Position numbers and translations under genes: made by a program. The notes beneath the pieces were generated by a model. It saw only the letters and a list, made by a program, of their open reading frames with translations, was not told where the DNA came from and did no database searches. Positions 344 to 21,410 of a stretch of DNA of 64,000 nucleotides are shown piece by piece; positions within the stretch are counted from its first letter, which is position 1; every line of letters starts with the position of its first letter. The stretch is from assembly GCA_032622095.1 (NCBI GenBank), contig CP136067.1, positions 78,146,705 through 78,210,704 on the forward strand, given 5' to 3'. The DNA comes from Siphonodentalium dalli (taxonomy: Eukaryota > Mollusca > Scaphopoda > Gadilida > Siphonodentaliidae).

Positions 344-1193
344 CTAGCATGTTAGCCCGCCACTGGCGGCGTTGGTCAGAAACATGATATTTTTTTGGCT
401 TTTCAACGAGTTAATTGTGCCTTTTTAATCAAGAGAAATTATGGTACCCGTCCCTAAAAGATTTAAGGTACATCGGGCGGAAAGAACTGACCCGATGAAA
501 AATTGTTGTGCCCGACGTTGTCCGGGATATTCAAAAACCAAATTTCAAGTCGATAGCTCCATCCGTTTCCGAGATCTGGTGTGCGCATGCGCTGCACGGG
601 CGTCGCACGGGCTCGCCAATACGACAACGACGACCACCTGGTCAAACTACACTCACGTACCAAGTTTCGTCCCGATCGGTCGAGGTGTTGGTATCTGATG
701 CAAAAGACGAAATTGTGAGTGTTGGTTTGTAACCGGGATTTCTGAGAAGCATTATGCCTATATCCACTTTAACTACCCCCTCCTAAGCCCTGACCTAAGT
801 GTCATACATACTATAACAATGATGTTGTAAGAGTACTATGGCATCCAATAAATCTCCCCGCATAGCTAACCACTCAAAAGTATTGTTCCCGTATATCTCT
901 CTGCAGATGCTAATAACGTTGAATGGTAAACAGACGCTCTTTATAGCGATGCGTCAAAAACAAACGCTCATTAAATTATCACTTGATTAACCACCGCAGT
1001 GCCGTTTTTTTGTGATTGACATTGGAGAACGGGTGCTCTGATCTTCTTCAAAACGCGACAACTACGGTGTCCGTGGTATTTTACACTTATATACGAAGTT
1101 TGAGCTCAATCTGTCCACGCGTTTTCGATTCCATGAAGTACAAACACACATATATACATATATATACGGAGTTCACAAAATATATAGTATAGA
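344..1193 (-). mobile_element. HINE-B unit carrying a HINE-A fragment
   Basis: Starts with CTAG (344-347) and the hairpin CCGCC-act-GGCGG (~359-371). It ends with AAAATATATAGTATAGA before the next CTAG. At ~505-690 it contains one HINE-A monomer, including an intact TGCGCATGCGC palindrome, so it is a mosaic. No gene. Confidence 0.7.
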
Positions 1194-2011
1194 CTAGCAG
1201 GTTAGCCCGCCACTGGCGTGGTTGGTCAGAAACATGACATTTTTTTTAATTATTTTGGTTTTATTTATTTATTTATTTTGAATTTTTTAATATTAATTTA
1301 ATGTTTTTTTAAATTTAATTAATTATTTTTAATTTTTTTTAATTTTAAATTGTTTTAATTAATTTTTTTAATGAATTTTTTGTTTCTGGCGGAAAAATTG
1401 ACCCGATGAAATCCCCCCTTCCTAGGAACGACAGACAACGCATTGTTTGTTTTTCAATGAGATAATTCATGGTACCCGTCCTAAACACCCCTGTCCCCGA
1501 ATTGACCCGATGAAATCCCCCCTTCCTAGGAACGACAGACAACGCATTGTTTGTTTTTCAATGAGTTAATTCGGGTAATCCCGTCGTGAAATCTCTCTGC
1601 ATAATATTTCGAGCGATAGCGTTGCGTTGAATTGTAATCAAACGCTGCTTAGATCAATTCTGCCTTTTTAATCGAGATAATTGCATTTAGTCGCGCATCC
1701 GTTTTTCGGACGCATGGGGTCAGTCGTTTAGCCACGTCCATTGCAATAAAGAGCGTTAATCCTTAACACCTCCGAATATGGTCAATATATCGTTGATGCC
1801 TTAACCCCCGAAGTGGCGTTTGCGGTGATTTTGATGATTGGGAAGGGAGAAGAGGTGCTCTGAGCTTCTCCAAAACGCGACCACGGCGGTGTTCGTGGGA
1901 TTTTAAACTTATATACGAAATTTGAGCTCAATCTGTACACGCGTTTTCGATTCTATGAAGTACCCACATACACACACATATATATACGGAAGTCTCAAAT
2001 TATATAGTAGA
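1194..2011 (-). mobile_element. HINE-B unit
   Basis: CTAG at 1194-1197, the HINE-B 3' hairpin, then a T-rich low-complexity stretch (~1236-1385). A direct repeat of ~60 bp (about 1399-1460 and 1503-1565) follows, and the right end is at 2011. No gene. Confidence 0.7.
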
Positions 2012-3081
2012 CTAGCAGGTTAGCCCGCCACTGGCGTGCTTGGTCAGAAACATGACAATGTTTTATGTTTTGTTTGTGTTTTTCAATGATTTAATATTGG
2101 GGTTTTCAATATTTTACCCGATTTGACCTTGAATTGATCATTTTCAAGGTCAAGGTCATGTCGGGGTCACAATATATCATTTGTGGGTACCCGTTTGAAG
2201 GTTAAGACTGACCCGATGAAAAATTCCCCCGTTGCTAGGAACGACAGACATAAGAATATTTCACACAATGCGACGTCGACGATCACCGTGTGTTTTTACA
2301 CTTATATACGAAGTTTGAGCTCACCTAGGGCGGAAAAACTTACAAGATCCGCGTTCTTAGGAACAAAACACGCTCCGCGTTCTTGGGAACACAACACGCT
2401 CATGTCTATACACGCCCAGACCCAGAAGAGGTATGATTTTTTTTAACCTGCCCGTGGCCATTGAGCAGCCCCTGAAAGAGGTTGTCCACCCTTACGAGAT
2501 GGTCAATAGTCCCAGCAAAGTTAATCCCGTCGTGAACCCCATCCTCGCAAAGAGCGGACAGTCAATTAATCCCGTCGTGAACGCCATCACCGACGAGACG
2601 TATGTTTGGTATCATGTGTTGCGTTCTAAAAATAGGAAAGCACTTGTTCCCGTATACGTTTGCGTAAATACGAAATTGTGAGTGTTGGTTTGTAACCGGG
2701 ATTTCTGAGAAGCATTATGCATATAACTACACCCCTAAGCCCTGACCTAAGTATCATACATACTATAACAATGATGTTGTAAGAGTACTATGGTATCCAA
2801 TAAATCTCCCCGCATAGGAAACCACTCAATGTTCCCGTATGGCTCTCTGCAGATGCTAATAACGTTGAATGGTAAACAGACGCTCTTTATAGCGATGCGT
2901 CAAAAACAAACGCTCATTAAATAATCACTTGATTAACCCACGCCGTGCCTTTGCGGTGAATTGGGAGTGGATAAAGGGTGCTCAGAGCTTCTCCAAAACG
3001 CGACAACTACGGTGTTCGTTGTTTTTACCCTTAGATGGGAAGTTTGAACTCAATTGAGCCAGCCGTTTTCGATTCTATAAA

Positions 3082-3117
<36 letters not shown>

Positions 3118-3139
3118 GGAAGTCTCAAAATATATAGTA
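2012..3139 (-). mobile_element. HINE-B unit, intact paralogue of the CR1-interrupted unit
   Basis: 1128 bp from the CTAG at 2012 to 3139. It holds the nuclear-receptor-like CAAGGTCAAGGTCA at ~2145-2158 and a (TA)n tract at 3086-3115. Positions ~2676-2700 are the uninterrupted version of the site that carries the CR1-like insertion at 4376, so this unit is the natural empty site. The right end lacks the terminal TC bases (AGTA rather than AGTAGA). Confidence 0.7.
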
Positions 3140-3689
3140 CTAGCCGATGAGCCCGACGTTGTCCGGGCTATTCAAAAACCAAATTTCAAGTCGATAGCTC
3201 TACCCAGCGCTATTCAAAAACCAAATTTCAAGTCGATAGCTCTACCCGTTTCCGAGATCTGGTCTGCGCATGCGCGAAGCTGGCGTCGCACGGGCTCTGC
3301 GACCAGATAAAACTCGTATCCGGGGCAAGATACATTCACATAGCAAATTTCAAGTCGATAGCTCCACCCGTTTCCGAGATCTCGTCTGCGAATGCGCGAA
3401 GATGGCGTCGCACGGACTCGGCGACCCGATAACATTCGTATCCGGGGCAAGATACATTCACATAGCAAATTTCAAGTCGATAGCTCCACCCGTTTCCGAG
3501 ATCTCGTCTGCGCATGCGCTGCACGGGCGCCGCACGGGCTCGCCAATACGACAACGTCCACCGCCTGGTCAAACTACACACGTACCAAGTTTCGTCCCGA
3601 TCGGTCGAGAATCGTAGATTTGTATCAATGACAGACAAACATACAAACAAACATACAGACAAACAGAGGTCTTCAAAATATATATGAGA
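3140..3689 (-). mobile_element. HINE-A unit
   Basis: CTAG at 3140, then the hairpin AGCCCGAC-GTT-GTCCGGGCT (one bulged C). Tandem ~122-bp monomers starting CAAATTTCAAGTCGATAGCT follow, then a CGTACCAAGTTTCGTCC segment, an (ACAG/ACAA)n microsatellite (~3630-3668) and the right end ATATATATGAGA. No gene. Confidence 0.75.
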
Positions 3690-4364
3690 CTAGCAGGTTA
3701 GCCGCCACTGGCGTGCTTGGTCAGAAACATGAAACATGACAATGTTTTATGTTTTGTTTGTGTTTTTCAATGAGTTAATATTGGGTTTTTCAATATTTTA
3801 CCCGATTTGACCTTGAATTGATCATTTTCAAGGTCAAGGTCATGTCGGGGTCACAATATATAATTTGTGGGTACCCGTTTGAAGGTTAAGACTGACCCGA
3901 TGAAAAATTCCCCCGTTCCTAGGAACGACAGACATAAGAATATTTCACACAATGCGACGTCGACGATCCCCGTGTGTTTTTACACTTATATACGAAGTTT
4001 GAGCTCACCTAGGGCGGAAAAACTTACAAGATCCGCGTTCTTAGGAACACAACACGCTCCGCGTTCTTAGGAACACAACACGCTCATGTCTATACACGCC
4101 CAGACCCAGAAGAGGTATGATTTGTTTTAACCTGCCCGTGGCCATTGAGCAGCCCCTGAAAGAGGTTGTCCACCCTTACGAGATGGCCAATAGTCCCAGC
4201 AAAGTTAATCCCATCGTGAACCCCATCCTCGCAAAGAGCGGACAGTCAATTAATCCCGTCGTGAACGCCATCACAGACGAGACGTATGTTTGGTATCATG
4301 TGTTGCGTTCTAAAAATAGGAAAGCACTTGTTCCCGTATACGTTTGCGTAAATACGAAATTGTG

Positions 4365-4375
4365 AGTGTTGGTTT
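4365..4375. repeat. Target-site duplication, left copy
   Basis: AGTGTTGGTTT, repeated at 10125-10135 and present once in the empty paralogous site near 2681. Confidence 0.85.
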
Positions 4376-4685
4376 AGTTTAAACATATTTATTTGTCTGA
4401 TTTCAATAACACATATAGGAAATGATACATACATTTTTATATAGACAATGGGATTGGAGGACAAGTGCTTACTCACTTATGAGTACCTCCTCTCCCATTT
4501 GCTATTACACTGAAAAATAAATCAAGAATAATGGCATTGCAACATGACTACCAAAGGCAAGTTGAACTTATATACATGTACATATCACCGGTCGTTTCCC
4601 GCCCCCGAGTCAGTCTTTTGTTTATACATGAATTACTTGAAAGTCGTCTTTGATTGAGTCATTTGCTGGCTTGTATATGTATTTG

Positions 4686-6272
4686 CTAGACTTGGTCAAT
4701 AGCATCTAGTTTTGTCTCACGGATGAATGATTGTACAGCTAAGAAAAATTTTTCATTGTCGCAATCGGGTAGAGCAGGGTCTCCAAATAGCAGAATTTTT
4801 AGTGAGTAAATATTATAAGGAAGTAATTTATTCAATAGGCGAATTCTTGGGATCGAATGTAGGCAACAATCAAAGAAATAATGGAAGGCATTTTCTTCTC
4901 CATTTCCACATGAGCAGTCTTTGCAACTTGCAATGTAATTTTGAACCTTATCTGATAGGAGGTTGCTACATTCACATCGTAATCTGCAGTGATATATATT
5001 TTCAGTCCGCTTTCCTACATTGTAATATTTGGGGGGTTTGGGTATTTCTGGTTTAAATGTGTTTAGATAACATTGTAGGTTAAGATCTCGAGTCTTAATT
5101 TTGGTTGCATTCCAATTTTTTACACACGTGGGCATGAATGTTGACTCCATTCTTTTTGTATTAGGTTTAAAATGTATAAAGTTTGATGCAAATCTAGTAT
5201 CGTGGTCGCTTATATCGGAGAATTTTGGGGGAAGTAAGTCAACTAAATATTTGGGCACTTTGTGATTTACAATGTTATGAAAAAGTGAAAGTCTTTTTGT
5301 TTGTCTTCTTTCTGAAAGTGTTTCCCAACCCATTTCGGTTAGTATTCGTTTGCGAGGTACAGATCTCGTACAGCCACTTATAATGCGTGCGGCTTCATAT
5401 TCTACATCATCTAGTTGTTTGAGTAACTTGTCTGGTGCTCCAGCCCAGACACTACTTGCATATTCCATGATTGGGCGTACGTGTGACAAATAGAGGATTT
5501 CAAGAGTTTTGCGGTTTAAAAGATACTTGAGTCTTCGTAGTTGGGATAATTTAGCATAAGCTCTGGCACATACATTTTCTATATAACTGTCCCATGTTAA
5601 GTCGTCATCTATTTCCATGCCTAGATGCCTGTGCTGTTTAGAGTAATCAAGTCTCAATCCATCAAAGGTTATGAGCGGTCTCTCAAGGTTTTGAGAACTT
5701 GTGAAAAATAGTAATTTTGTCTTAGAATTATTAAATTTAACTATCCATGTGTCCGCCCACTTTCTTATTTTCTCCATGTCGTTATTTACACTATGTTCAA
5801 GGCTTTGTATGTCCGTATCGGATTTTATGAGGCATGTGTCATCGGCGTATAGTCTGATTTGTGATTCTATGTTGTCAGCAATATCGTTTATATAGATTAA
5901 AAATAGCAGCGGGCCGACTACGGACCCCTGGGGGACCCCTGCTGTTACTGGCGAATATTTAGAAAAGCTAGAATTTATTTGCACCCTTTGTTGCCGTCCG
6001 TCAAGATAATTTGTGAACCATTTATGCAAGTTGTCTGTTATTCCATAGTGTTTTAATTTGAGTAACAGACCTTGGTGCCATACTTTGTCAAACGCTTTCG
6101 AGATGTCACAGAAAACAGCACACGTGCTTTGTTCATTGTCTACAGCGTGGTGTATTCTATGAAAAATTTCAACAAGTTGGAGTTCGGTACTGTGGCCTGG
6201 TATAAAACCGGATTGGTATTTATATAGTAAGTTGTTTGTATTTAAATGATTAAAGACTTTGTTGAATACCAC
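4686..6272 (-). CDS. Retrotransposon ORF2 C-terminal part: reverse transcriptase
   Basis: 528 residues of RT and a C-terminal domain. Visible motifs are SGFIPGHST (21-29), motif A DISKAFDKVW (56-65, with D56), motif B AGVPQGSVVGP (111-121) and motif C YADDT (142-146, catalytic aspartates 144-145). A thumb segment includes HLGMEIDDDLTWDSYI (216-231) and YLSHVRPIMEYASSVW (261-276). The C-terminus has a Cys/His cluster (C453, C455, H464, C469; HYFFDC) typical of these elements. The first codon is GTG, i.e. an internal valine. The frame is open upstream to a TAA at 6324-6326, so the true beginning is in the other frame and a frameshift lies at about 6301-6345. The enzyme would copy element RNA at the nicked target in the nucleus. 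This copy is disrupted. Confidence 0.92.
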   Translation of the reverse strand: MVFNKVFNHLNTNNLLYKYQSGFIPGHSTELQLVEIFHRIHHAVDNEQSTCAVFCDISKAFDKVWHQGLLLKLKHYGITDNLHKWFTNYLDGRQQRVQINSSFSKYSPVTAGVPQGSVVGPLLFLIYINDIADNIESQIRLYADDTCLIKSDTDIQSLEHSVNNDMEKIRKWADTWIVKFNNSKTKLLFFTSSQNLERPLITFDGLRLDYSKQHRHLGMEIDDDLTWDSYIENVCARAYAKLSQLRRLKYLLNRKTLEILYLSHVRPIMEYASSVWAGAPDKLLKQLDDVEYEAARIISGCTRSVPRKRILTEMGWETLSERRQTKRLSLFHNIVNHKVPKYLVDLLPPKFSDISDHDTRFASNFIHFKPNTKRMESTFMPTCVKNWNATKIKTRDLNLQCYLNTFKPEIPKPPKYYNVGKRTENIYHCRLRCECSNLLSDKVQNYIASCKDCSCGNGEENAFHYFFDCCLHSIPRIRLLNKLLPYNIYSLKILLFGDPALPDCDNEKFFLAVQSFIRETKLDAIDQV

Positions 6273-6588
6273 TTTTTCTAATATTTTACCAATACAGCTT
6301 ATCCGAAATTCTGATGTGACGGTTTAAAGACTACATTATTGATATATAGTTATTTGGATCACTGCGGTCACCATTTTTAAATATTGGTATTATGTTTGCT
6401 CTTTTCCATGCCACAGGGAAACAACAGCTCTTAAATGATTTATTAAAAATATAATATAAGGGTTTACTGATGGAGCTGCATGTTTCCCTGAGCAATTTAT
6501 TGTTTATCCCATCAGGACCGTTTGCCTTCTTAACAGGAAGGCATTTTAGAATGTCAAATATTTCTTTCTCATTTGTTTTAATTTCTTT
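6273..6588 (-). pseudogene. RT N-terminal segment between nonsense mutation and frameshift
   Basis: Continues in the frame of the endonuclease after TAA 6589-6591. It encodes conserved early RT blocks (KKANGPDGI, then WKRANIIPIFKNGD, then SDPNNY) before frame loss near 6301-6345, where the downstream RT frame takes over at FRISCIGKILEK. It shows that the two open frames were once one protein. Confidence 0.8.
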
Positions 6589-8052
6589 TTAAAACTTATT
6601 GGTTCTATCTGCAAAGGTCGGGGGCTCCATTTTATTGGTTTCTAGTGTGCCATGTTTAGTGAATATCTCATTGAGGAGTTCTGCCTTTTGAATCTCATCT
6701 TCAATATCCGTATTACCTGATTTCAGTATAGGTATTGTATTGTCGGTCGAAAAATTGTTGAGAAGTTGTTTTACAGTGTGCCAGAATTGTTTTGGTTTAG
6801 TATTCACACTTAAGTTTTCGTCTAGATCGCTCATGTATCTTTCCTTTGCTGCTTTTTTTAAATTGTTAACTTTGTTTCGAACACACTTGTATTTGTTCCA
6901 ATCAGACTCCATATTTCTACGAACTGCCAGTTTTTTCAGTCGGTCGCGTTTTCGGATATGTTTTCTGATGATACCGTCAAACCAGGGTTTATCACGATTT
7001 CGGATTGTTATCTCATGGTATGGGATATGTTTTTTGGAGACCTCTAAGAAGGTTTCAGTGAATTTGTCAACCATTTTATCTATATACGTCGAGTCGGCTT
7101 CGGTATGTAACATTTGTTTCCAGTCGATATTGAAGAGTTCCATGTTTATTCTCTCATAGTTGCCCTTTGAATAATTCCAAACAGAACGTTTGTAGGATTT
7201 TGGTTTATATATTGGGACACACACTTCAACCGACGTTGCAAGGTGGTCTGATACTCCGAGATCATAAGTAGAGGGGTTCATTGATTTAATGGTGTCACTT
7301 ATTATGATCGGGTCTAATAAAGTTTCCGAGTTTCCTGCTATTCTAGTTGGTCCGCTTATGACATTTTTTAGAGTAAATTTTTTCATGATTGACTGAAGAG
7401 GACCTGATCTTTTCAGCAAATCGCAATTTAAATCGCCTACTATCACCAGCGAAGAATTTATGGACAAGGCACGTTCGATCGCTTCATCTAGTTTTTTCCA
7501 ATATGTCTCAATACATTCGTTATCTGAACGGTAAGTTACGCAAAGAATAAATTTGTGCTTGGTTCCCACCTCAAACCATAAAATCTCATCTTCAAAACAT
7601 AAAAAGTCTAGCAATTTAAAGGTGATATGAGTCGAGAAATATACGGCGAGTCCGCCACCACGTTCATTCCTATCAAGTCGAATTGGAGGTTGACAGTTAG
7701 ATAAGGTAATGTTTTCACTGGGAAAGTTTGCATTTAGATGTGTTTCGCTAAAGCAGATGATATCAAAATCATCTATCTCCTCTGCAATGTGTGATATTTT
7801 GTTTCTGATACTTCGTATATTGTAGTGAAAAACTGAAAGAGTTTCTTGTTCAAAAGGTCCAGGGTTCTTTTCTGTGTCATTTGATAATATGATGAGGAGG
7901 GAGAGAAGGAGGAATACAGCAAGGTGTCTACAGCGACGAGGGTCGAATGCCAGATTAGTTGGTTTTGAAAAGTTGAGTTTGATGTTACCAGAACGCCAGC
8001 GTATTTTGAATAGACCGATCGCCTGCCTATACTGCATTAGTGGTACATTCAT
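6589..8052 (-). CDS. Retrotransposon ORF2 N-terminal part: 2A-like peptide plus EEP endonuclease
   Basis: 487 residues. A hydrophobic run (44-57) leads into DTEKNPGP (59-66, nt 7855-7878), matching the D-x-E-x-NPGP core of 2A ribosome-skipping peptides. An exonuclease-endonuclease-phosphatase fold follows: HYNIRS (76-81, with N78), SETHLN (102-107, with E103), RGGGLAVY (131-138), GDLNC (206-210, with D207 and N209) and GVSDH (266-270, with S268, D269 and H270). These are the metal and catalytic positions of APE-type nucleases that nick the target DNA. A basic linker (~350-410, including KPWFDG) leads toward the RT. The frame ends at TAA (6589-6591). Beyond it the same frame continues with RT N-terminal motifs (ANGPDGI, then IIPIFKNGD) to ~6340, so the stop is a nonsense mutation, not the natural end. 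The start codon is the first ATG of the frame and is not otherwise supported. Confidence 0.9.
   Translation of the reverse strand: MNVPLMQYRQAIGLFKIRWRSGNIKLNFSKPTNLAFDPRRCRHLAVFLLLSLLIILSNDTEKNPGPFEQETLSVFHYNIRSIRNKISHIAEEIDDFDIICFSETHLNANFPSENITLSNCQPPIRLDRNERGGGLAVYFSTHITFKLLDFLCFEDEILWFEVGTKHKFILCVTYRSDNECIETYWKKLDEAIERALSINSSLVIVGDLNCDLLKRSGPLQSIMKKFTLKNVISGPTRIAGNSETLLDPIIISDTIKSMNPSTYDLGVSDHLATSVEVCVPIYKPKSYKRSVWNYSKGNYERINMELFNIDWKQMLHTEADSTYIDKMVDKFTETFLEVSKKHIPYHEITIRNRDKPWFDGIIRKHIRKRDRLKKLAVRRNMESDWNKYKCVRNKVNNLKKAAKERYMSDLDENLSVNTKPKQFWHTVKQLLNNFSTDNTIPILKSGNTDIEDEIQKAELLNEIFTKHGTLETNKMEPPTFADRTNKF
7855..7878 (-). other. 2A-like ribosome-skipping motif
   Basis: Encodes DTEKNPGP immediately after a leucine/isoleucine-rich segment. 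In 2A peptides the glycyl-prolyl bond before the last proline is skipped during translation. Such motifs are known at the N-terminus of ORF2 in some CR1-like elements of sea urchins, molluscs and lancelets, and in trypanosome L1Tc. Activity here is inferred from the motif alone. Confidence 0.7.
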
Positions 8053-10124
8053 CGATAATATAGTAATTTAGACATGTAGTATAGGCTTGCGATCGTGACT
8101 GGTCGTGAACGGACTTTCATGAAATGATAGAACATGACATCGATGGGTTTGAAACGACTGGTGAATGGTGGTGTAACAAAGAAAATTGTATAACAAAAAT
8201 AAACATAATATATATAAACTTGTACGTTGGAGCTTTGGTAGATCATTTGATCGGAAATACGGCTGACTACCCAGCCGATGATACTGGATGATAGGGAATT
8301 TTGTATAATGTTTTCAGCGCGAAGACTTAGTTGGAAAACGTTCACTATCTAGTGTGGTGTTTTTGATTACTGCAAATTAGTGCTGTAAAAATTTAGTCTT
8401 TTAAAGACCAGACAAACATTTAAATGACATAACCAGGTTGGTCAAAGTTAAATCTTATTTGTGGGGGTGCACTTTTTTAAGAATTACAGTTTTGGAAATG
8501 TTTAAACTATATAAGTTCTGTGAAATTTGTTATCAAAAATGAGTATAATTTTTATAATAGAGTTATCTCCAGTTCGGTAGATTTTAATTTCACTAAGATT
8601 TACATTAAAAGTCTTGTTTTGTTTTATCAACTATCCGGACCTATATAGGACAGATAAGTACACATATGGAGAGGCTATGTTTAAAATGTGTATACGTTTC
8701 TACGAGATAAAGGCGCCATGTCAGACACCATTGGTCCGCTTCCATCTTCTGTTAGTTAAGATGCTGTGCAAAGTGACGTGAAAGGTCAAGGAGATGCAGC
8801 CAGCGGCCAGCCACGCGATGGAGGAGAAATATGTTTGGTTTTTGGTTCAGGAATATTTAACATATATAGTTGTATTTTCGTTTGTGAACGATGGTTAGAA
8901 TTTAGTTCGACCATCTAGCCTCTAAGAGCAATGTTCTGATTCTTAATTTTATCTGGAAAGAACGTTATCTCAGTCCATTGGCATTGGCTATATTCAGTGC
9001 ATCATATCGGGGTCAAATCAGTACAGTACAGTATTGATCAAAACAAAATTATTATGAATGTTTAAGTTATGTATTATGATTCATGGGTCTTTGCTAAAAG
9101 TTTTTTAAATGTTTTTTTGTTTGTTTGATTTTTGTTTTGTTTTTTTTGGAGTGCTATACGGTAATATAGTTTCAAAGTCAGTTTAAAGCATGATCTTACG
9201 ATATGGCGATTGCTTAATAACTTCAATTCTTTACAAATTTAGGATTTCTCAGCACAAGTTTGGCGAGTATCCTGAAATTTATAGCAATAGCAATATATGG
9301 AAACCAAAACCTTTGTAATATTGAGTTGAATTCCTGGTTGTTGGAAGTTGGTTTTGGTGAGCTAGTATCATAGTCCAGTTGTATACTTGTTTAGAATAAT
9401 GTTTCGTGTTAAAGCGACAATTCTTCATATCTGTTATGATATGTTTATTTATTATTTATTTTATTTTATTAATTTAAGTTTTTTTTGTTTTTTTGTTGTT
9501 ATGGTATCCCGTCAAAATATCAGTCCATGTATTACTCGAGATGGCACTCATATATCACTTGGTTATATGAATATGTACCATTAAGGGGGAGATCAAGCAA
9601 CCAACTCCGATAGGGGACCTCCATGAAAAACTCCTCAGCATTAGTTAGATATGAAGCAACTGTGGAACTAATGCAACCACAGTTTAGCAGAAACAACATT
9701 TGACTGATGGCCTGTCTTCATTAATCAGGAAATTGTTGCTATAAATTTTATTTGATATGAAATATCAGTATCAATATGATATAAATGATTCAATATCAAT
9801 ATTAATATTATTTTTTTTAGTTAAAACCATGCTAGATGAATAATTGTAATCTTTCATTGTGGATATAGATTAGATATCTCCATAATTTAAGAGAAGATAA
9901 AAGTACAGATGTACTGTAAGTCATGAAACATTGGGCCAGCATTATCTAACAGATGTCGGGTCTGAATCTTGGATGTGCATACAAAGGTTAGGTTTCCATA
10001 TACTTATCATAATACAGGTACAAATAACTCTCATCAGAACAATTTGGCACATAACAAAGTAGATGCCACATGATTTAACAGCATACAATAAATAGAAAAT
10101 TATAACAAATTTCATAAACATGAA
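8053..10124 (-). other. 5' region of the CR1-like element, no gene recognised
   Basis: 2.07 kb of AT-rich DNA upstream of the endonuclease frame within the insertion. One 98-codon minus frame (8049-8345) shows no family motif. Poly-T-rich stretches lie at ~9100-9150 and ~9430-9500. It may be an untranslated leader or a decayed ORF1. Confidence 0.5.
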
Positions 10125-10135
10125 AGTGTTGGTTT
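10125..10135. repeat. Target-site duplication, right copy
   Basis: AGTGTTGGTTT, identical to 4365-4375. After it the HINE-B sequence resumes exactly where it was broken. Confidence 0.85.
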
Positions 10136-10526
10136 GTAACCTGGATTTATGAGAAGCATTATGCCTATAACTACACCCCTAAGCCCTGACCTAAGTATCA
10201 TACATACTATAACAATGATGTTGTAAGAGTACTATGGCATCCAATAAATCTCCCCGCATAGGAAACCACTCAATGTTCCCGTATAGCTCTCTGCAGATGC
10301 TAATAACGTTGAATGGTAAACAGACGCTCTTTATAGCGATGCGTCAAAAACAAACGCTCATTAAATAATCACTTGATTAACCCACGCCGTGCCTTTGCGG
10401 TGAATTGGGAGTGGATAAAGGGTGCTCAGAGCTTCTCCAAAACGCGACAACTACGGTGTTCGTGGGTTTGTACCCTTAGATGGGAAGTTTGAACTCAATT
10501 AAGCCAGCCGTTTTCGATTCTATAAA

Positions 10527-10566
<40 letters not shown>

Positions 10567-11098: not shown

Positions 11099-12233
11099 CT
11101 AGCCGATGAGCCCGATGTTGTCCGGGCTGTTCAAAAACGAATTTTCAAGTCGATAGCTCTACCCAGCCCGACGTTGTCCGGGTTATTCAAAAACCAAATT
11201 TCAAGTCGATAGCTGTACCCGTTTCCTAGATCTGGTCTGCGCGAAGCTGGCGTCGCACGGGCTCGGTGACCCGATAAAATTCGTACCCGGGGCAAGATAC
11301 ATTCACTGCCGTAACAGGTGATAACATGTTCACATTCGGCGGATCGGGCACTGCGGTCAGTCAAAAAACATAACGCTCACGCTATAACTCCGGTATCACT
11401 AACGTACGCGGCATTGGGAGGGTCAGTTTAACTTCCGCCTGGATCCACGTGGCGTGACGTAATTCACAACCACGTGTATTTACCTCGAAAGAGTTCAAAT
11501 TGCGCGACCGCGACGCACACAATGGCCCGATAATGGGCACGCATTCCCTGGCATTTCCCAGAAGATATTCATGGGGAGGTCGAGTGACCAATTTTGAAAT
11601 TTTCTGGTCGCATTCGTCTGTAGGTCTGAGCAATTCTCGGCTAGATATTGTTACCAACGTGACATATTTAAATTAATCCCGCCGCGCACCCCATCACCAA
11701 CGCGACATGTGCTGCTTTCGTAGAGATGACGAAATATGAGTGAGACAGAGAATATTGTTTGATCGAAAGCATTTGAATTAATAAGTCGCAATACTCGCCT
11801 TGATGGTGGCTAATATATAGATATTTGTCCCTGTTAGGTGTTGTGAATGTCGTTACTCGCATTGATGGTGGCTAATAGATATTTGTCCCTGTTAGGTGTT
11901 GGGAATGTCGTCACACAACACGCTCATGTCTGGATACAGTCTTACACGATCACGCCGAGACCCAGACGTAAGAGTCACATTAAACACATACGATCTTTAT
12001 CAACACACTGCGGACACGAACGCTCTTTAACTATCAACGCTATTAACCACCGCAGTGCCGTTTTTTTGGGACTGAGAGTGGAGAATGGGTGCTCTGAGCT
12101 TCTCCAAAATGCCGCGACGACGATTCCCGTGGCTTTTTACCCTTAGATGGGAAGTTTGAACTCAATCGAGCCAGCCGTTTTCGATTCTATGAAGTACACA
12201 TATATATACGGAAGTCTCAAAATATATAGTAGA
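11099..12233 (-). mobile_element. Chimeric HINE unit with HINE-A 3' end, foreign insert and HINE-B 5' end
   Basis: HINE-A 3' end and a partial core (11099-~11305), then ~345 bp of unrelated, more GC-rich sequence (11306-~11650), then HINE-B type sequence to the right end at 12233. A short duplication (TTGATGGTGGCTAATA, ~11800 and ~11860) lies inside. No gene recognised. Confidence 0.6.
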
Positions 12234-13355
12234 CTAGCAGGTTAGCCCGCCACCGGCGGCAATAGTCAGAAACATGACAATTTTTAAGTTTTAAATAGCA
12301 GGTTAGCCCGCACGGGCTCAGCGACCCGATAAAATTCGTATCCGGGGCAAGATACATTCACATACCAATTTCAAGTCGATAGCTCCACCCGTTTCCGATA
12401 TCTCGTCTGCGCATGCGCTGCACGGGCGTCGCACGGGCTCGCCAATACGACAGCGACGACCACCTGGTCAAACTACACTCACGTACCAGGTTTCGTCCCG
12501 ATCGGTCGAGGTGTTGGTATCTGATGCAAAAGACGAAATTGTGAGTGTTGGTCAATAGTCCCCGCCGTGAACCTCATCGTCGCAAAGAGCGGACAGTCAA
12601 TTAACCCCGTTGTGAACCTCAATCACCAACGCGACGTAAACATTTGTTGCGTTCTAAAAATAGGAAAGCACTTTCTCTCTGCATAATTCTGCAGATGCTA
12701 ATAACGTTGCTCCCCGTAGGTAGCAATATCGTTGTTGTTGATATTTACGGCTTGGGGGCTATTTTCTTATTTAGCAAGTTTGAGCTCAATCGGTTAGAGT
12801 CTATAAAGGACACACTCATATATATGACACTTCCGTAGGTAGCAAGTTTGAGCTCAATCGGCATTCCCTGGAATTTCCCGTAGATTGGCAGATTCCAGTA
12901 GCTTTATAACGGTATATCTGGGGAGAAATCTGATGCTATATTCGTGATTATCTGGGATGATTTCGGTATATACCGGTATATACCGGTATATACTGTAAAA
13001 ACAAAGCGCGCCATCCGTGCTCGCAGGGAATAAATTTCGAGCGATAACGTTTGCGTTCCCGTATAACTCTGCAGATGCGAATAACGTTGAATGGGAAACA
13101 GACGCTCTTTATAGAGATGCGTCAAAAACAAACGCTCATTAAATAATCACTTGGTTAACCCACGCCGTGCCTTTGCGGTGATTTGAGATTGGAGAACGGG
13201 TGCTCTGAGCTTCTCTAAACCGCGACCACGGTCGTGTCGGTGGGATTTGACACTTACATAGGAAGTTTGAGCTCAATATGTACACGCGTTTTGGATTCTA
13301 TGAAGTACACACACACACACACATATATACGAAGTCTCAAAATATATAGTATAGA
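12234..13355 (-). mobile_element. HINE-B unit with embedded HINE-A monomer
   Basis: CTAG at 12234 with a variant hairpin (CCGCCACCGGCGG). A HINE-A monomer with the TGCGCATGCGC palindrome sits at ~12300-12540. A segment at ~12720-12920 is shared with 15413-15610. The right end is at 13355. Confidence 0.7.
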
Positions 13356-14176
13356 CTAGCAGGTTAGCCCGCCACTGGCGGCATTCGTCCCATGGCTTTG
13401 TTCGAAAAAGCAATTGCAACAGGTTCCGAGACACTTCTGCTGCATTTGTACCAAATTTCGTCAGAAACATGACATTTTTTTAATTATTTTTGTTTTTGTT
13501 TTTGTTTTTTTTATATTTTTTAATGTTTTTTAAATTTAATATATATTTTTTCTGAATTTTTTGTTTTTGTTTTAATTTTTTTAATTTTAAATTGTTTTAA
13601 TTAAATTTTAGAAATCCCCCCTTCCTAGGAACGACAGACAACGCTCGAGCGATAACATTGCATTGAATTGAAAACAAACGCTTCCCGTCGTGAAATGTCT
13701 CTGCATAATATTTCGAGCGACAGGCTACAGACTCCCGTCATACAGATAAGTAGATAGCGAAACGAAATTTACATGTAGAAATCCCCCCTTCCTAGGAACG
13801 ACAGACAACGCTCGAGCGATAACATTGCATTGAATTGAAAACAAACGCTTCCCGTCGTGAAATGTCTCTGCATAATATTTCGAGCGACAGGCTACAGACT
13901 CCCGTCATACAGATAAGTAGATAGTAGACACTGCGGAAAACGAACACTCTTTATATATCAACGCTATTAACCCCGAAGTGCCGATTGCGGTGATTTTGAT
14001 GATTGGGAAGGGAGAAACGGTGCTCTGGGCTTCTCCAAAACGCGACCACGGCCGTGTCGGTGGGATTTTACACTTATATACGAAATTTGAGCTCAATCTG
14101 AACACGCGTTTTGGATTCCATGAAGTACACATATACACACATATACATATACGTAGTTCTCAAATTATATTGTAGA
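13356..14176 (-). mobile_element. HINE-B unit with ~177-bp internal duplication
   Basis: CTAG at 13356. A T-rich interior is followed by a nearly perfect direct repeat starting at 13611 and 13788 (GAAATCCCCCCTTCCTAGGA). The right end is at 14176. Confidence 0.7.
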
Positions 14177-14984
14177 CTAGCCGATGAGCCCGACGTTGTC
14201 CGGGCTATTCAAAAACCAAATTTCAAGTCGATAGCTCCACCCGTTTCCTAGATCTGGTCTGCGAACGCGCGAAGCTTGCGTCGCACGGGCTCGACGACCC
14301 GATAAAATTCGTATCCGGGGCAAGATACATTCACATAGCAAATTTCAAGTCGATAGCTCCACCCGTTTCCGAGATATCGTCTGCGCACGCACGAAGCGGG
14401 CGCCGCACGGGCTCGCCAATACGACAACGTCGACCGCCTGGTCAAACTACACACACGTACCAAGTTTCGTCTCGATCGGTCCTATGAAATACAGCACAAC
14501 ACGCATTTTTGGTTTTTCATGAATTAATTCATGGTACCCGTCCCTCAAAGACTGACCCGATGAAAAATTCCGCTGTTCCTAGGACATATATGACACAACA
14601 ACCCATTCTGCCTTTTTAATCGAGATAATTGCATTCCGCGTTTCGTTTTGGATCCGTATTTTAAGCATGTGTAGACGTTTAGCCATGTCGATTACAATAA
14701 ATAGCGTTCGTCGTTAACAACTCCGTATATGGTCAATATAACGATCGTTGATGCCTTAACCCCCGAAGTGGCGTTTGCGGTGATTTTGATGATTGGGAGT
14801 GGAGAATCGGTGCTCAGAGCTTGTCAAAAATGCGACGTGGACGATCCTCGTGGGTTTTTACACTTATATACGAAATTTGAGCTCAATCCGTCCAGGCGTT
14901 TTCGATTCCATGACGTACCCACATACATATATATATATACGCACATATATATATATATACGTAGTTCTCAAAATATATAGTAGA
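14177..14984 (-). mobile_element. Chimeric HINE-A/HINE-B unit
   Basis: HINE-A 3' end and core (14177-~14480) switch to HINE-B sequence with HINE-B's 5' end at 14984. The hybrid carries one family's 3' terminus and another's 5' terminus. Confidence 0.65.
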
Positions 14985-16033
14985 CTAGCAGGTTAGCCCG
15001 CCACTGGCGGCATTCGTCCCATGGCTTTGTTTCAGAAACATGACATTTTTGTAATTATTCTGTTTTTATTTATTTTTGTTTTTTATTTTTGAATATGAAT
15101 TTAATGTTTTTTAAATTTAATATATTTTGTTTCTGAATGGTTTTTTTATTGTTAATTTTTTTTAATTTTAAATTGTTTTAATTAAATTGTAAATTGTTTT
15201 AATTAATTTTTTTGTTTCTGGCGGAAAAATTTACCGGTAGAAATCCCCCCTTCCTAGGAACGACAGACAACGCATTCTTTGTTTCGTGAAATCTCTCTAC
15301 GATAACATTGAATTTAAAACAAACGCTTCCCGTCGGGAAATCTGTCTTCGGGTCGTTGTTGTTGGCATCACGGCTCCCCGAAAACTCTCACATTGCCGAA
15401 AACGTGTATTTAGTAATATCGTTGTTGTTGATATTTACGGCTTGGGGGCTATTTTCTTATTTAGCAAGTTTGAGCTCAATCGGTTAGAGTCTATAAAGGA
15501 CACACTCATATATATGACACTTCCCGTAGGTAGCAAGTTTGAGCTCAATCGGCATTCCCTGGAATTTCCCGTAGATTCGCAGATTCCAGTAGCTTTATAA
15601 CGGTATATCTGGGGAGAAATCTGATGCTATATTCGTGATTATGTGGGATGATTTCGGTATATACCGAAGGTATATACTGTAAAAACAAAGCGCGCCATCC
15701 GTGCTCGCAGGGAATAAATTTCGAGCGATAACGTTTGCGTTCCCGTATAACTCTGCAGATGCGAATAACGTTGAATGGGAAACAGACGCTCTTTATAGAG
15801 ATGCGTCAAAAACAAACGCTCATTAAATAATCACTTGATTAACCCCCGCCGTGCCTTTGCGGTGATTTGAGATTGGAGAACGGGTGCTCTGAGCTTCTCT
15901 AAACCGCGACCACGGTCGTGTCGGTGGGATTTGACACTTACATAGGAAGTTTGAGCTCAATCTTTACACGCGTTTTGGATTCTATGAAGTACACACACAC
16001 ACATATACGAAGTCTCAAAATATATAGTATAGA
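14985..16033 (-). mobile_element. HINE-B unit
   Basis: CTAG at 14985, HINE-B hairpin, T-rich interior (~15040-15230), the segment shared with 12720-12920, and the right end at 16033. No gene. Confidence 0.7.
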
Positions 16034-17985
16034 CTAGCAGGTTAGCCCGCCACTGGCGTGGTTGGTCAGAAACATGACATTTTTAAAATTATTTTGTATT
16101 TTTTAACATAGCATTTTTTGTTTTTCATGAATTAATTCATGGTACCCGTCCCTCAAAGACTGACCGATGAAAAAAATCCCCTGTTCCTTGGACACAATAT
16201 ATGACACAACAACCCATTCTGCATTTTTAATCGAGATAATTGCATTCCGCGTTTCGTTTTGCATCCGTGTTTACGCATGGGTAGCCGTTTAGCAGCTTCG
16301 ATTGTTATCAGGCGGAAAAACTGACCCGATGAAATCCCCCCCCTTCCCTTCCTATGAACGACAGCACAACACGCATGTTTTGTTTTTCATGAATTAATTC
16401 ATGGTACCCGTCCCTCAAAGACTGACCCGATGAAAAATTCCCCTGTTCCTAGGACATACATGACACAACAACCCATTCAGACTTTTTAATCGAGATAATT
16501 GCTTTCCGCGTTTCGTTTGGCATCCGTATTTTACGCATGGGTAGCCGTTTAGCAGCTTCGATTGTAATCGGGCGGAAAAACTGACCCGATGAAATCACCC
16601 TTCCCTTCCTATGAAAGACAGCACAACACGCATTTTTTGTTTTTCATGAATTAATTCATGGTACCCGTCCCTCAAAGACTGACCCGATGAAAAATTCCCC
16701 CGTTCCTAGGACATATATGACACAACAACCCATTCTGCCTTTTTAATCGAGATAATTGCATACCGCGTTTCGTTTTGCATCCGTATTTTAAGCATGGGTA
16801 GCCGTTTAGCAGCTTCGATTGTAATAAAGAGCGTTGATCCTTAACACCTCCGAATATGGTCAATATAAAGATCGTTGATGCCTTAACCCCAGGAGTGGCG
16901 TTTTCGGTGATTTTGATGATTGGGAGTGGAGAAATGGTGCTCATAGCTTCTCCAAAACGCGACAACTACGGTGTCCGTGGGTTTTTACCCTTAGATGGGA
17001 AGTTTGAACTCGATCCGACCAGCCGTTTTCGATTCTATAAAGTACCCACATATATATATACACACATATATATATACGGAAGTCTCAAAATATATATATA
17101 GAATGGCAGATTCGAGTAGCTTTATAACGGTATATCTGGGGAGAAATCTGATGCTATCTTCGTGATTATCTGGGATGATTTCGGTATATACCAAAGGTAT
17201 ATACTGTAAAAACAAAAGCGCTCCATCCGTGCTCGCAGGTTTGGTCAGAAACATGACAATTTTAATTTTTTAATTAAATTTTTTTTTTTTAATTAATTTT
17301 TGGTTTTTCAATATTTTACCCGATTTGACCTTGAATTGATCATTCTCAAGGTCAAGTTGGGGTCACAATTTAACCCGTTCATGACACTTCCCGCAGGTAG
17401 CAAGTGTGAGCGCAATCGGTTCGAGTCTATAAAGGACATATGCACACATATATATAATTTGTGGGTACCCTTTTCGAGGTGAAAATCATCTAGGGCGGAA
17501 AAACTGACCCGATCACGATAAATGACGAGATATGAGTGCGACAGAGAATATTGCAACTCGAACGAATGGCAGTGTTGCTATTCACAAAGAATTGTAAATG
17601 AACTGCGTCTGATCCAATTGTAAAAGTATTATGACTTCCAATAAACCGCATAGGAAAGCACTTGTTCCCGTATATCTCTCTGCCTAATAAATTTCGAGCG
17701 ATAACGTTGTAAACAAACGCTCTTTTTATAGCGACGCGTCATATACAACGCTCATTAAATTATCACTTGATTAACCACCGCAGTGCCGTTCGCGGTGATT
17801 TTGCTGATTGGGAGTGGAGAAAGGGTGCTCAGAGCTTCTCCAAAAAGCGACAACTACGGTGTCCGTAGGATTTTACCCTTATTTACGAAATTTGAGCTCG
17901 ATCCGACCAGCCTTTTTCGATTCTATGAAGTACACATATACACACACACACATATATATACGGAAGTCTCAAAATATATAGTAGA
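16034..17985 (-). mobile_element. Long HINE-B unit with ~250-bp internal triplication
   Basis: 1952 bp. Three successive copies of a ~250-bp block, each with CATGAATTAATTCATGG and GGTAGCCGTTTAGCAGCTTC, lie at ~16110-16310, ~16380-16565 and ~16640-16830. A CAAGGTCAAG segment is at ~17348. The right end is at 17985. Confidence 0.65.
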
Positions 17986-18334
17986 CTAGCCAAATTTCAA
18001 GTCGATAGCTCCACCCGTTTCCGAGATCTCGTCTGCGCATGCGCGAAGCGGGCGCCGCACGGGCTCGGTGACCCGAAAAAATTCGCATCCGGGGCAAGAT
18101 ACATTCACATAGCAAATTTCAAGTCGATAGCTCCACCCGTTTCCGAGATCTCGTCTGCGCATGCGCGAAGCGGGTGCCGCACGGGCTCGCCAATACGACA
18201 ACGACGACCGCCTGGTCAAACTACACTCACGTACCAAGATTCGTCCCGATCGGTCGAGAATCGTAGATTTGTATTAATGACAGACAGACAAACAAACATA
18301 CATACAGACAGAGGTCTTCAAAATATATATGAGA
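17986..18334 (-). mobile_element. HINE-A unit lacking the 3' hairpin
   Basis: After CTAG (17986-17989) the sequence goes straight into the core repeat (CAAATTTCAAG), so the hairpin present in other HINE-A copies is missing. Two core monomers, an (ACAG/ACAA)n tract and a normal right end follow. Confidence 0.7.
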
Positions 18335-18774
18335 CTAGCCGATGAGCCCGACGTTGTCCGGGATATTCAAAAACCAAATTTCAAGTCGATAGCTCTACCC
18401 AGCGCTATTCAAAAACCAAATTTCAAGTCGATAGCTCCACCCGTTTCCGAGATCTCGTCTGCGCATGCGCGAATCTGGCGTCGCACGGGCTCGGCGACCC
18501 GATAAAATTCGTATACGGGGCAAGACACATTCACATACCAAATTTCAAGTCGATAGCTCCACCCGTTTCCGAGATCTCGTCTGCGCATGCGCGAAACGGG
18601 CGCCGCACGGGCTCGCCAATACGACAACGTTCACCGCCTGGTCAAACTACACACACGTACCAAGTTTCGTCCCGATCGGTCGAGAATCGTAGATTTGTAT
18701 AAATGACAGACAGACAAACAAACAAACATACATACAGACAGAGGTCTTCAAAATATATATGAGACTAGCAGGTT
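18335..18774 (-). mobile_element. HINE-A unit
   Basis: Complete termini: CTAG plus hairpin at 18335 and right end ATATATATGAGA at 18774. Core of ~2 monomers with two TGCGCATGCGC palindromes. Confidence 0.75.
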
Positions 18775-19961
18775 AGCCCGCCACTGGCGGCGTTGGTCCG
18801 AAACATGACATTTTTTTCGCGCTTTTCAATGAGTTAATCGTGCCTTTTTAAGAGAAATTATTGTACCCTCCCTAAAAGAGGTATGATTTAAGGTACATTG
18901 GGCGGAAAAAAAACAGACCCGATGATGTCGTTGTTGTTGGCATTCAGGGCTTCGGGTCGTTGGCATCACGGCTCGGGGCTACCCGAAAAATCTCACATTG
19001 CCGTATAGGGAAAATAGGATTGCGTGTATTTAGTAATTTTAACTAATTATTTTCTCGCCAACAATGTCGTTGTTGTTGATATTTACGGCTTGGGGGCTAT
19101 TTTCTCGCCAACAATGTCGTTGGCGTTCACGGTTTTGGGCAGTGGAAGTCCCGTCAGATTTGGGACGTATCGCAGTGCCTCGCGGATTCACTTAAAAAAC
19201 TGATCCGATGATGTCGTTGTTGGCATTCGGGGCTTCGGGTCGTTGTTGTTGGCATCACGGCTCCCCGAAAAATCTCACATTGCCGAAAAGGGAAAATAGG
19301 ATGCGTGTATTTATTAATTTTAACTAATTATTTTCTCGCCAACAATGTCGTTGTTGTTGATATTTACGGCTTGGAGGCTATTTTCTCGCCAACAATGTCG
19401 TTGGCGTTCACGGTTTGGGGCAGTGGAAGTCCCGTCAGATTCGGGACGTATCGCAGTACCTCGGATACACTTAAATTTCAGCAGCCATATAGCTGCGTCA
19501 GTTAGCAGGAATTGTGGTGTGTAAGTTTATACTTTAAAATCTAAATGTTTCGGAAATAGATTAATATTTTCAGCCGTAACAAAAAATTTATACATCAGAA
19601 AATGTAAATTCTATATTTTGCGAGGTATTAGCAAGTTTTGGCTCAACGGGTTTAGCAGTTTGAAGTGAATATGGATATAAAAATATATATATACAGATAT
19701 CAAAAAATGTAGAGTTACTCCTCTTGGATCGCGAGCGAATATCAACCCGATTAACCCCCGCCGTGATTTTATTGATTGGGAGTGGAGAACGGGTGATCAG
19801 AGCATGTCCAAAATGCGACGTCGGCGATCCCCGTGGGTTTTGACACTTATATACGAAATTGAGCTCAATTCGTCCAGGCGTTTTCGATTCCATGACGTAC
19901 CCATATACACACACACACACACACATATATATATACGGAAGTCTCAAAATATATATATAGA
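18775..19961 (-). mobile_element. HINE-B unit with ~285-bp tandem dimer
   Basis: CTAG and hairpin at 18775. Two successive ~285-bp copies (about 18922 and 19206 onwards) contain CTCGCCAACAATGTCGTTG. The right end AAAATATATATATAGA is at 19961, abutting an imperfect GTAG. Confidence 0.65.
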
Positions 19962-20411
19962 GTAGCCGATGAGCCCGACGTTGTCCGGGCTATTCAAAAA
20001 CCAAATTTCAAGTCGATAGCTCCACCCGTTTCCGAGATCTGGTCTGCGCATGCGCGAAGCTGGCGTCGCACGGGCTCGGCGACCCGATAAAATTCGTATC
20101 CGGGGCAAGATACATTCACATACCAAATTTCCAGTCGATAGCTCCACCCGTTTCCGATATCTCGTCTGCGCATGCGCGAAGCTGGCGTCGCACGGGCTCG
20201 GCGACCCGATAAAATTCGTATTCGGGGCAAGATACATTCACATACCAAATTTCAAGTCGATAGCTCCACCCGTTTCCGAGATCTCGTCTGCGCATGCACT
20301 GCACGGGCGTCGCACGGGCTCGCCAATACGACAACGACCACCGCCTGGTCAAACTACACACACGTACCAAGTTTCGTCCCGATCGGTCGAGAATCGTAGA
20401 TTTGTATTAAT

Positions 20412-20445
<34 letters not shown>

Positions 20446-20465
20446 GGTCTTCAAAATATATGAGA
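19962..20465 (-). mobile_element. HINE-A unit
   Basis: The terminal tetranucleotide is GTAG instead of CTAG; the hairpin is intact. Three core monomers begin at 20002, 20124 and 20246, exactly 122 bp apart. An (ACAG)n tract and the right end at 20465 follow. Confidence 0.75.
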
Positions 20466-20784
20466 CTAGCCGATGATCCCGACGTTGTCCGGGCTATTCA
20501 AAAACCAAATTTCAAGTCGATAGCTCCACCCGTTTCCGAGATCTGGTCTGCGCGAATCTGGCGTCGCACGGGCTCGGCGACCCGATAAAATTCGTATCCG
20601 GGGCAAGATACATTCACATACCAAACTTCGAGTCGATAGCTCCACCCGTTTCCGAGATCTCGTCTGCGCATGCGCGAAGCGGGCGCCGCACGGGCTCGCC
20701 AATGCGACAAAGTCGACCGCCTGGTCAAACTACACACGTACAAGACAGACAGACAGACAGAGGTCTTCAAATATATATATGAGA
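20466..20784 (-). mobile_element. Short HINE-A unit
   Basis: CTAG, hairpin (GATCCCGACGTTGTCCGGGC variant), two shortened monomers, (ACAG)n and the right end at 20784. Confidence 0.7.
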
Positions 20785-21361
20785 CTAGCCGATGGGCCCG
20801 ACGTTGTCCGGGCTATTCAAAAACCAAATTTCAAGTCGATAGCTCTACCCAGCCCGACGTTGTCCGGGCTATTCAAAAACCGAGATCTGGTCTGCGCATG
20901 CGCGAAGCTGGCGTCGCACGGGCTCGGCGACCCGATAAAATTCGTATCCGGGGCAAGATACTTCACATACCAAATTTCAAGTCGATAGCTCCACCCGTTT
21001 CCGAGATCTCGTCTGCGCATGCGCGAAGCTGGCGTCGCACGGGCTCGGCGACCCGATGAAATTCGTAACCGGGACAAGATACATTCACATACCAAATTTC
21101 AAGTCGATAGCTCCACCCGTTTCCGAGATCTCGTCTGCGCATGCGCGAAGCTGCCGTCGCACGGGCTCGGCGACCCGATTTCCGAGATCTCGTCTGCGCA
21201 TGCGCTGCACGGGCTCGCCAATACGACAACGTCCACCGCCTGGTCAAACTACACACACGTACCAAGTTTTGTCCCGATCGGTCGAGAATCGTAGATTTGT
21301 ATAAATGACAGACAGACAGACATACATACAGACAAACAAACAGAGGTCTTCAAAATATATA
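20785..21361 (-). mobile_element. HINE-A unit with partly duplicated 3' hairpin
   Basis: CTAG and hairpin at 20785, with a second hairpin copy at ~20849-20880. Core monomers with five NRF-1-like palindromes or variants follow, then (ACAG)n, and an eroded right end. Confidence 0.7.
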
Positions 21362-21410
21362 TAGCTGATGTGCCCGACGTTGTCCGGGCTATTTCTCAAA
21401 ATATAAGAGA
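21362..21410 (-). mobile_element. Terminal HINE remnant: fused 3' hairpin and 5' end
   Basis: Only ~49 bp remain. A HINE-A 3' hairpin is joined to TCTCAAAATATAAGAGA, whose reverse complement is a Helitron-like 5' end. It is followed by T (21411), the expected flanking base. This is the right boundary of the array. Confidence 0.6.

Follow-up and report, generated by a model that had tools for sequence, protein, structure and literature searches.

Head-to-tail Helitron arrays in Siphonodentalium dalli: probable serial integration at resident 5′ ends

We analyzed a 64,000-nucleotide stretch of the Siphonodentalium dalli genome (G000:C7:78146705-78210704; hereafter the window), which is free of N and comes from an assembly of 2,226,750,531 bases in nine contigs. 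The window carries an array of Helitron transposons that lie head to tail on one strand. This array is probably a stack of separate canonical Helitrons, serially integrated at the 5′ terminus of a resident element and in that element's orientation. We base this reading on exact CTAG/TC joints (the slash marks the boundary between units), a single orientation, a mixture of families within arrays, and the finding that units of family A within one array are not close relatives.

Organization of the Helitron arrays

Unit borders were placed by reading every minus-strand CTAG and by a scan for 5′ and 3′ ends on both strands. The main array comprises 22 units and 21 joints, head to tail on the minus strand, and the joint is exactly CTAG/TC at 16 of the 21. 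As in canonical Helitrons (Helitron1), the units' 5′ ends are TC and their 3′ ends carry a CTRR motif with a hairpin ~10 nt upstream; the motif is CTAG at most unit ends, and the hairpin sits just upstream of it. The 5′ end of the array is at 32334, preceded by an A (...TATA/TC); on its other side the array leaves the window at position 1.

We distinguished end types by letter and side (A5 and A3 for the 5′ and 3′ ends of type A, and so on). Type A has the 5′ end TCTCATATATATTTTGAAGACC and the 3′ end AGCCCGGACAACGTCGGGCTCATCGGCTAG; type B has TCTACTATATATTTTGAG or TCTATACTATATATTTTGAG at its 5′ end and CGCCAGTGGCGGGCTAACCTGCTAG at its 3′ end; type C has TCTAATATATATTTTGGG and GCCCGGACGAAGTCGGGTCACCTGCTAG, respectively. 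A fourth 5′ end, type D (TCTATTATATATTTTGG), is paired with C-like 3′ ends and was found in other loci. The A3 hairpin folds at ~-12.7 kcal/mol (RNA parameters), while the stems of B3 and C3 are shorter, with less uniform folding. The 18-mer AGACTAGCAGGTTAGCCC matches the window 16 times with up to 3 mismatches, versus 0.01 matches expected. The both-strand scan found no plus-strand end inside the main array within 5 edits; matches on that strand took 6 or 7 edits there, as did chance matches elsewhere.

Five joints of the main array are inexact. The U2-U3 joint reads CTA/TATATATTTTG, falling six bases short of where the joint is expected, and the U5-U6 joint reads CTAC/TC. At U9-U10 the 3′ end is missing, and the U16-U17 and U18-U19 joints both read CTAG/TACT. 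A second, complete array (56096-58258, minus strand) has the order C-A-C between the flanks GATGATGA and TTATATATAAG, and both of its joints are exact.

These data bear out the spacer-free joints in one orientation that an earlier analysis of the sequence alone (the original prediction) had described, on a larger scale than it claimed, and redraw other parts of it. The array extends past 21410, through U2, to the 5′ end of U1. A unit of 0.05 kb, probably the 45 bases at 21366-21410, is more plausibly the 3′ end of U2, from which A3 differs by 3 edits; a separate mini-unit is a possible alternative. To the two families proposed, the second array adds a third, C. U17 is long only through a retrotransposon at 4376-10124. 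The units are as follows.

30457-32334, minus: U1, A5-A3, 1878 bp, the 5′-most unit; interior pieces in common with the U2 5′ region
21366-30456, minus: U2, autonomous A-type Helitron of ~9.1 kb; A5 at 30456, A3-like hairpin end at ~21366, CTAG damaged
20785-21365, minus: U3, A5 (first bases lost)-A3
20466-20784, minus: U4, A5-A3
19962-20465, minus: U5, A5-A3 (CTAC)
18765-19961, minus: U6, B5-B3
18335-18764, minus: U7, A5-A3
17986-18334, minus: U8, A5; 3′ hairpin missing, CTAG retained
17103-17985, minus: U9, B5; 3′ end missing
16034-17102, minus: U10, B5-B3
14985-16033, minus: U11, B5-B3; first ~630 bp 96.7% identical to U14, then divergent
14177-14984, minus: U12, B5-A3 chimera; the element of V2 except for the 5′ end
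13356-14176, minus: U13, B5-B3
12234-13355, minus: U14, B5-B3
11099-12233, minus: U15, B5-A3 chimera
10589-11098, minus: U16, A5-A3; duplicate of U18
3690-10588, minus: U17, B (5′ TC missing)-B3; duplicate of U19, with a retrotransposon inside
4376-10124, minus: non-LTR (long terminal repeat) retrotransposon in U17; endonuclease open reading frame (ORF) 6589-8052, reverse transcriptase ORF 4686-6272, 11-bp target duplication 4365-4375 and 10125-10135
3140-3689, minus: U18, A5-A3
2012-3139, minus: U19, B (5′ TC missing)-B3
1194-2011, minus: U20, B5-B3
344-1193, minus: U21, B5-B3
1-343, minus: U22, B5, cut by the window edge
57515-58258, minus: V1, C5-C3, behind GATGATGA
56739-57514, minus: V2, A5-A3, relative of U12
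56096-56738, minus: V3, C5-C3, followed by TTATATATAAG

Joints and orientation across the genome

Genome-wide tallies are whole counts, and individual places were taken from the first 100 of each pattern, all on contig C1. The exact 22-mer of A5 occurs 16,426 times in the genome: 8,207 times after CTAG, 7,593 times after A, and 626 times after neither, such that 96.2% of exact A5 ends follow a rule of 'A or CTAG'. Reversed-pattern controls for the 26-mer CTAG/A5 joint gave 0, against its 8,207 occurrences – not all of which are separate events, since some joints lie within segmental duplications.

We fetched the first 20 clusters of CTAG/A5 places on C1 (L009-L028), a choice that enriches joints of any 3′ end with A5. 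Exact patterns in these loci placed 64 of 64 5′ ends after CTAG (45) or A (19). A fuzzy finder was applied to 22 sequences – the 20 loci, the window, and a long array of A units (L029-L031, C1:31733401-31763400; BIG below) within which segments are duplicated, the longest spanning 5.5 kb at 98.9% identity. It classed 117 of 152 5′ ends as joints, 27 as following A, and 8 as following neither, and in none of the 22 sequences did it find 5′ ends on both strands. Opposite the strand of its A array, one locus (L024) has two 3′ ends of B3 type; these may be what is left of a decayed stack in the other orientation within 10 kb.

Orientation was also shared by neighbors along C1. Among the first 100 listed A5 ends, consecutive ends at most 20 kb apart had the same orientation in 45 cases and opposite orientations in 0, while more distant ones had the same orientation in 34 cases and opposite orientations in 20. 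A genome-wide count of head-to-head joints, covering all pairings of A, C, and short B ends, gave 1 site.

Insertion between A and T without target duplication, as in canonical Helitrons, is indicated at both edges: 7,593 A5 ends lie behind A, and the base after the terminal CTAG is T in 30 of 30 cases (the loci other than BIG). By eye, ~11 of these 30 continue into damaged resident 5′ ends and the rest into host sequence. Helentrons and HINEs insert in TT or T-rich sites (PMC4067079, PMC7492417); the starts found here are A/TC.

We also examined a second set of loci, chosen by A/A5 (L032-L041; 10 of the first 14 such places, omitting one already in L009 and three near another or each other), a choice that nearly excludes a 3′ end before A5. 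Four of the ten are A-D dimers, and six have no further 5′ end in the fetched 1.3 kb. In one of the six (L037), A5 stands behind CATCGGCTA, a joint seemingly without the G of CTAG; a few such joints are tallied as A/TC. In L035 and L036, A elements without a neighbor in the fetched stretch are followed at the same point by the same host repeat (TATATATAAGGCTGCTTTCAGCC...). Elsewhere, at L011:5740 and in L027 (minus strand), C-type 5′ ends come after CCACAAAT[TG]A, apparently within C-like bodies of the same orientation; these are apparently a second, internal 5′ end or nested insertions.

A proposed mechanism

Helraiser, from Myotis lucifugus, offers a template for how such joints might form. 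Its top strand is cut exactly between flank and TC, and its circles contain a precise CTAG/TC joint, of which only the plus strand is cleaved, and are active donors (PMC4778049, PMC5876387). Insertion is mostly into AT, and the preference for AT-rich sequence is strongest on the 3′ side (PMC4778049, PMC5876387). The joints of the arrays described here are the same as the joint of Helraiser circles (PMC4778049).

We propose that the HUH nuclease (Rep) of a Helraiser-like transposase, which would normally nick the top strand between the flanking A and the 5′ TC, could make the same nick at a resident element. An incoming circular Helitron, its own CTAG/TC joint opened, would then take the resident's A/TC nick as target; that Rep uses it in this way is what we infer from the joints. 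Joining of host A to the new TC, and of the new CTAG to the resident TC, would yield A/TC-new-CTAG/TC-resident – a product in the same orientation, without spacer, and open to any family. As a fresh A/TC would be renewed in front, arrays should grow chiefly at the 5′ end, and younger families should precede older ones. Long arrays have in addition been enlarged by segmental duplication, and perhaps by two-unit transposition past an internal terminator, as U16-U17 and U18-U19 suggest.

Order of families within arrays

We asked whether family order is consistent with growth at the 5′ end. Mean pairwise divergence was 0.069 for A, 0.216 for B, and 0.22-0.24 for C and D (8 units each after filtering), though subfamily structure inflates the B and the C and D values, which are therefore no clean measure of age. 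Rows differing from the consensus by more than 30% had been dropped (5 of 61 for A, 4 of 32 for B, and 8 of 16 for C and D). Across the 20 loci we counted 12 cases of A3 before a C or D 5′ end and a single case of C3 before A5, despite a choice by CTAG/A5 that favors the latter. Genome-wide, the A3/D5 joint occurs 2,657 times (counted in this direction only). The A-type units of the window are likewise concentrated toward the 5′ end (Mann-Whitney P 0.009, or 0.002 with the duplicate removed). More diverged families thus tend to lie 3′ and the least diverged 5′, matching the prediction of growth at the 5′ end.

The same data bear on a rival in which heteromeric circles or template switching join one element's CTAG to another's TC, and multi-unit circles insert as a block. 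Such circles would account at once for exact joints, single orientation, and family mixture, but they predict a symmetric order, unlike the 12 to 1 observed, and the families so joined differ in divergence. We consider this explanation unlikely. For the mixed families, the original prediction had offered two routes, a switch of template on circles or insertion time after time at terminal junctions; our results support the latter, with template switching or joining of different circles a less likely alternative.

Units of one array are not mutual relatives

If arrays were rolled off one template, their units should resemble one another. For A units, 92 of 99 passed a quality filter; the 37 from BIG and L022 were left out because of visible segmental duplication, and the remaining 55, in 23 arrays, were compared over 153 columns. 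Mean distance was 0.0756 within arrays (63 pairs) and 0.0714 between arrays (1,422 pairs), and a permutation test gave P 0.83 for a within-array value as low as observed. Unit lengths also differ inside all 11 listed arrays with more than one unit.

Comparisons within the window are similar. The 5′ 220 bases of B units differ mutually by up to 26.5%, and the only near-identical pairs are U11 with U14 and U17 with U19. Position and similarity of B units are uncorrelated (Mantel r -0.08, P 0.72). Across all 22 units, adjacent-unit similarity gave P 0.078, and P 0.018 when U18 and U19 were dropped; since B units alone gave P 0.30, this signal can be traced to the A units grouped at the 5′ end.

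Two cases of shared ancestry stand out. U12 (14177-14984), with B5, and V2 (56739-57514), with A5, carry different 5′ parts on one chimeric element: they are the same B-A chimera, 91.6% identical over 740 bp and most different at the 5′ terminal part, and this element stands in two arrays with different neighbors. It appears that families have exchanged 5′ ends. The second case is an A-B pair present twice (U16-U17 at 3690-11098 and U18-U19 at 2012-3689), duplicated from the first base of A to the last of B, in which the B copy lacks its 5′ TC both times. This arrangement suggests that the B copy traveled together with its A neighbor; it fits a two-unit transposition past an internal terminator, with a microhomology duplication a possible alternative.

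These observations speak against a concatemer made from one template, for which Rep would overrun the 3′ terminator and the copies rolled off one element would go in together as a tandem array. The original prediction of a concatemer was to be given up if units also occurred genome-wide with other flanks at the junctions, as A5 ends do (7,593 of 16,426 stand behind A); the units of one array are not mutual relatives, and the U12 and V2 element has different neighbors in its two arrays. Intact Helraiser captures flanking DNA in ~11.7% of events (PMC4778049), tandem arrays in bat and silkworm have been explained by bypass of the terminator (PMC4067079), and runs of A units and the U16-U17 and U18-U19 pair could partly be of such origin. 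Yet families are mixed within arrays, unit lengths are unequal, and most units have their own 3′ end, unlike plant arrays described with many 5′ ends and single 3′ ends (PMC12628747). We therefore set the concatemer aside as the main source on the within- and between-array A distances, and regard it as quite improbable.

Exactness of joints at A5

Another rival holds that the enzyme favors an A/T step followed by TATATA, and that Helitron 5′ ends merely resemble such sites. The AT fraction after the terminal CTAG is 0.84 (n=30), compared to 0.66 on the 5′ side (n=29) and a background of 0.59, though the likeness to resident 5′ ends is partly built in, as ~11 of the 30 sequences are such ends. 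However, A5 contains further, equally AT-rich A/T steps, and the joint expected for the step five bases inside A5 (the offset-5 joint, the only other offset counted) occurs 0 times genome-wide; because absence in this search is not proof of rarity, the argument rests also on fetched sequence, where CTAG-A5 joints matched letter for letter lie at offset 0 in 62 of 62 cases and no offset A5 joint was matched. On these offset results, generic AT-rich targeting is set aside for A5 and seems to us about as improbable as the concatemer.

Simple tandem duplication of Helitrons already in place, unequal crossing-over among them, or a fault of assembly is barely credible as a general explanation: duplicated segments are up to 98.9% identical over 5.5 kb in BIG and 97.6% identical over 1.8 kb in L022, and one A-B pair of the window is duplicated, but many joints connect dissimilar units, and short arrays at separate C1 sites are unexplained by one duplication or a local misassembly.

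Observations that weigh against serial integration

The results for single orientation and, for A5, exact termini are those expected of an array built by terminus-directed insertion. Several observations nonetheless count against serial integration at resident 5′ ends, or against its simplest form. First, no age gradient was found among A units: in 20 arrays the first unit was less diverged than the last in 9, more diverged in 10, and tied in 1; successive pairs split 18:18; and head units (0.035, n=16) did not differ clearly from internal ones (0.044, n=46; P 0.11). Nor does the distance of window B units to their consensus track position. Insertion at an internal G/TC joint is possible and would also erase a gradient. 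Second, in spite of the greater divergence of B than of A, B3/A5 joints outnumber A3/B5 joints by 7 to 2 in the 20 loci, and by 5′ type BA outnumbers AB by 8 to 3; both excesses arise partly because the loci were chosen by CTAG/A5. Growth at one end only is thus unproven.

Third, 6.5 of 55 A units have their nearest relative within their own array, compared with an expectation of 2.3, so there is local copying, on a minor scale. The count of 8,207 joints likewise includes copies multiplied by segmental duplication. Fourth, two A5 ends, each behind A, stand in opposite orientation ~390 bp apart (C1:25153345 and 25153753), and the scarcity of head-to-head joints may partly reflect perfect palindromes that are unstable or lost in assembly. 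Finally, some joints are irregular. The U2-U3 joint would be an offset-5 joint if the G of CTAG had been lost, or else a small deletion, and B-type ends vary, with CTAG/TACT twice in the window and TCTA stubs in L013 and L020.

We considered whether the CTAG/TACT joints represent insertion at internal A/T sites. The zero count of offset-5 joints weakens this idea, which may still hold for B-type ends.

Relationship to known systems

Helraiser and canonical Helitrons in general share with the elements described here the 5′ TC, the 3′ CTAG with hairpin, insertion between A and T, and a Rep-PIF1 protein. The elements here differ in that half of the exact family-A 5′ ends adjoin CTAG and in that mixed-family stacks are common.

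Tandem Helitrons as such were known before. They have been recorded in bat, Drosophila, rice, and maize (PMC5148889); arrays in bat and silkworm were ascribed to bypassed termination, and distant Helitrons lie side by side in bat and maize (PMC4067079). For one case in Metarhizium, insertion into the 5′ end of another Helitron was considered (PMC5148889). The tandem Helitrons of bat, silkworm, Drosophila, rice, maize, and fungi resemble ours in their adjacent or tandem copies, with bypass the usual explanation in these accounts; here there are thousands of joints, and the independence of units and the exactness of termini have been measured. Plant centromeric arrays (Xiong et al. 2016) are likewise tandem, many of them with multiple 5′ ends, a single 3′ end, and truncated copies (as described in PMC12628747), whereas most units here retain the 3′ end. 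Transposable element (TE) dimers that arise by insertion-site preference (McGurk and Barbash, as cited in PMC12628747) are similar in being tandems from repeated insertion at one site; those here are base-exact for family A, of mixed families and one orientation, and reach 22 units in the window array. The openings of open-access abstracts yielded no arrays of such scale with unit independence and terminus exactness measured, which implies no priority; scale, exactness, and unit independence are what make this new and testable.

In bacterial integrons, single-strand recombination adds circular cassettes at a fixed position and in a single orientation. The logic of the Helitron arrays is similar, though they are not integrons: the enzyme is an HUH Rep and not a tyrosine integrase, there is no attC, and each cassette is itself a transposon. 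By this analogy, the Helitron 5′ end would be an attachment site at which Rep recombines circles of cross-reacting families, at a resident A/TC or G/TC, and loci would grow as ordered cassette arrays that record the active families – a broader proposal to which we give about even prospects.

Cited papers mostly ascribe tandem Helitrons to failed termination. With its thousands of joints, this genome makes it possible to distinguish among bypass, circle joining, and targeted insertion, and present evidence favors the last of these, at the element's own start. If this is correct, a Helitron makes its own landing site, which would bear on the high copy number of Helitrons, on the clustering of internal satellite-like repeats, and on steering a Rep enzyme to a fixed site.

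The autonomous element U2 and other features

U2 encodes both proteins expected of an autonomous canonical Helitron, a Rep and a PIF1 helicase, in two ORFs that align to successive segments of Helraiser (7lcc) and are separated by a frame disruption.

24043-26514, minus: Rep ORF of U2, 823 aa; Helitron_like_N (PF14214, E 2.3e-52), residues 32-822 aligned to Helraiser 7lcc 85-908 (1.3e-149)
22264-23967, minus: PIF1-type helicase ORF of U2, 567 aa; PF05970 (E 1.7e-65), residues 2-541 aligned to Helraiser 7lcc 937-1463 (4.5e-96)

Pieces of the U2 5′ region recur within U1, which therefore looks like an internally deleted relative of U2. A search for relatives in viral and prokaryote collections found none. 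A 69-bp tandem repeat of 4.1 copies (26472-26752) overlaps the start of the Rep ORF. The 5.7-kb retrotransposon is a later arrival in U17. Outside the Helitron arrays, two 485-bp tandem copies that are 97% alike lie at 35661-36631.

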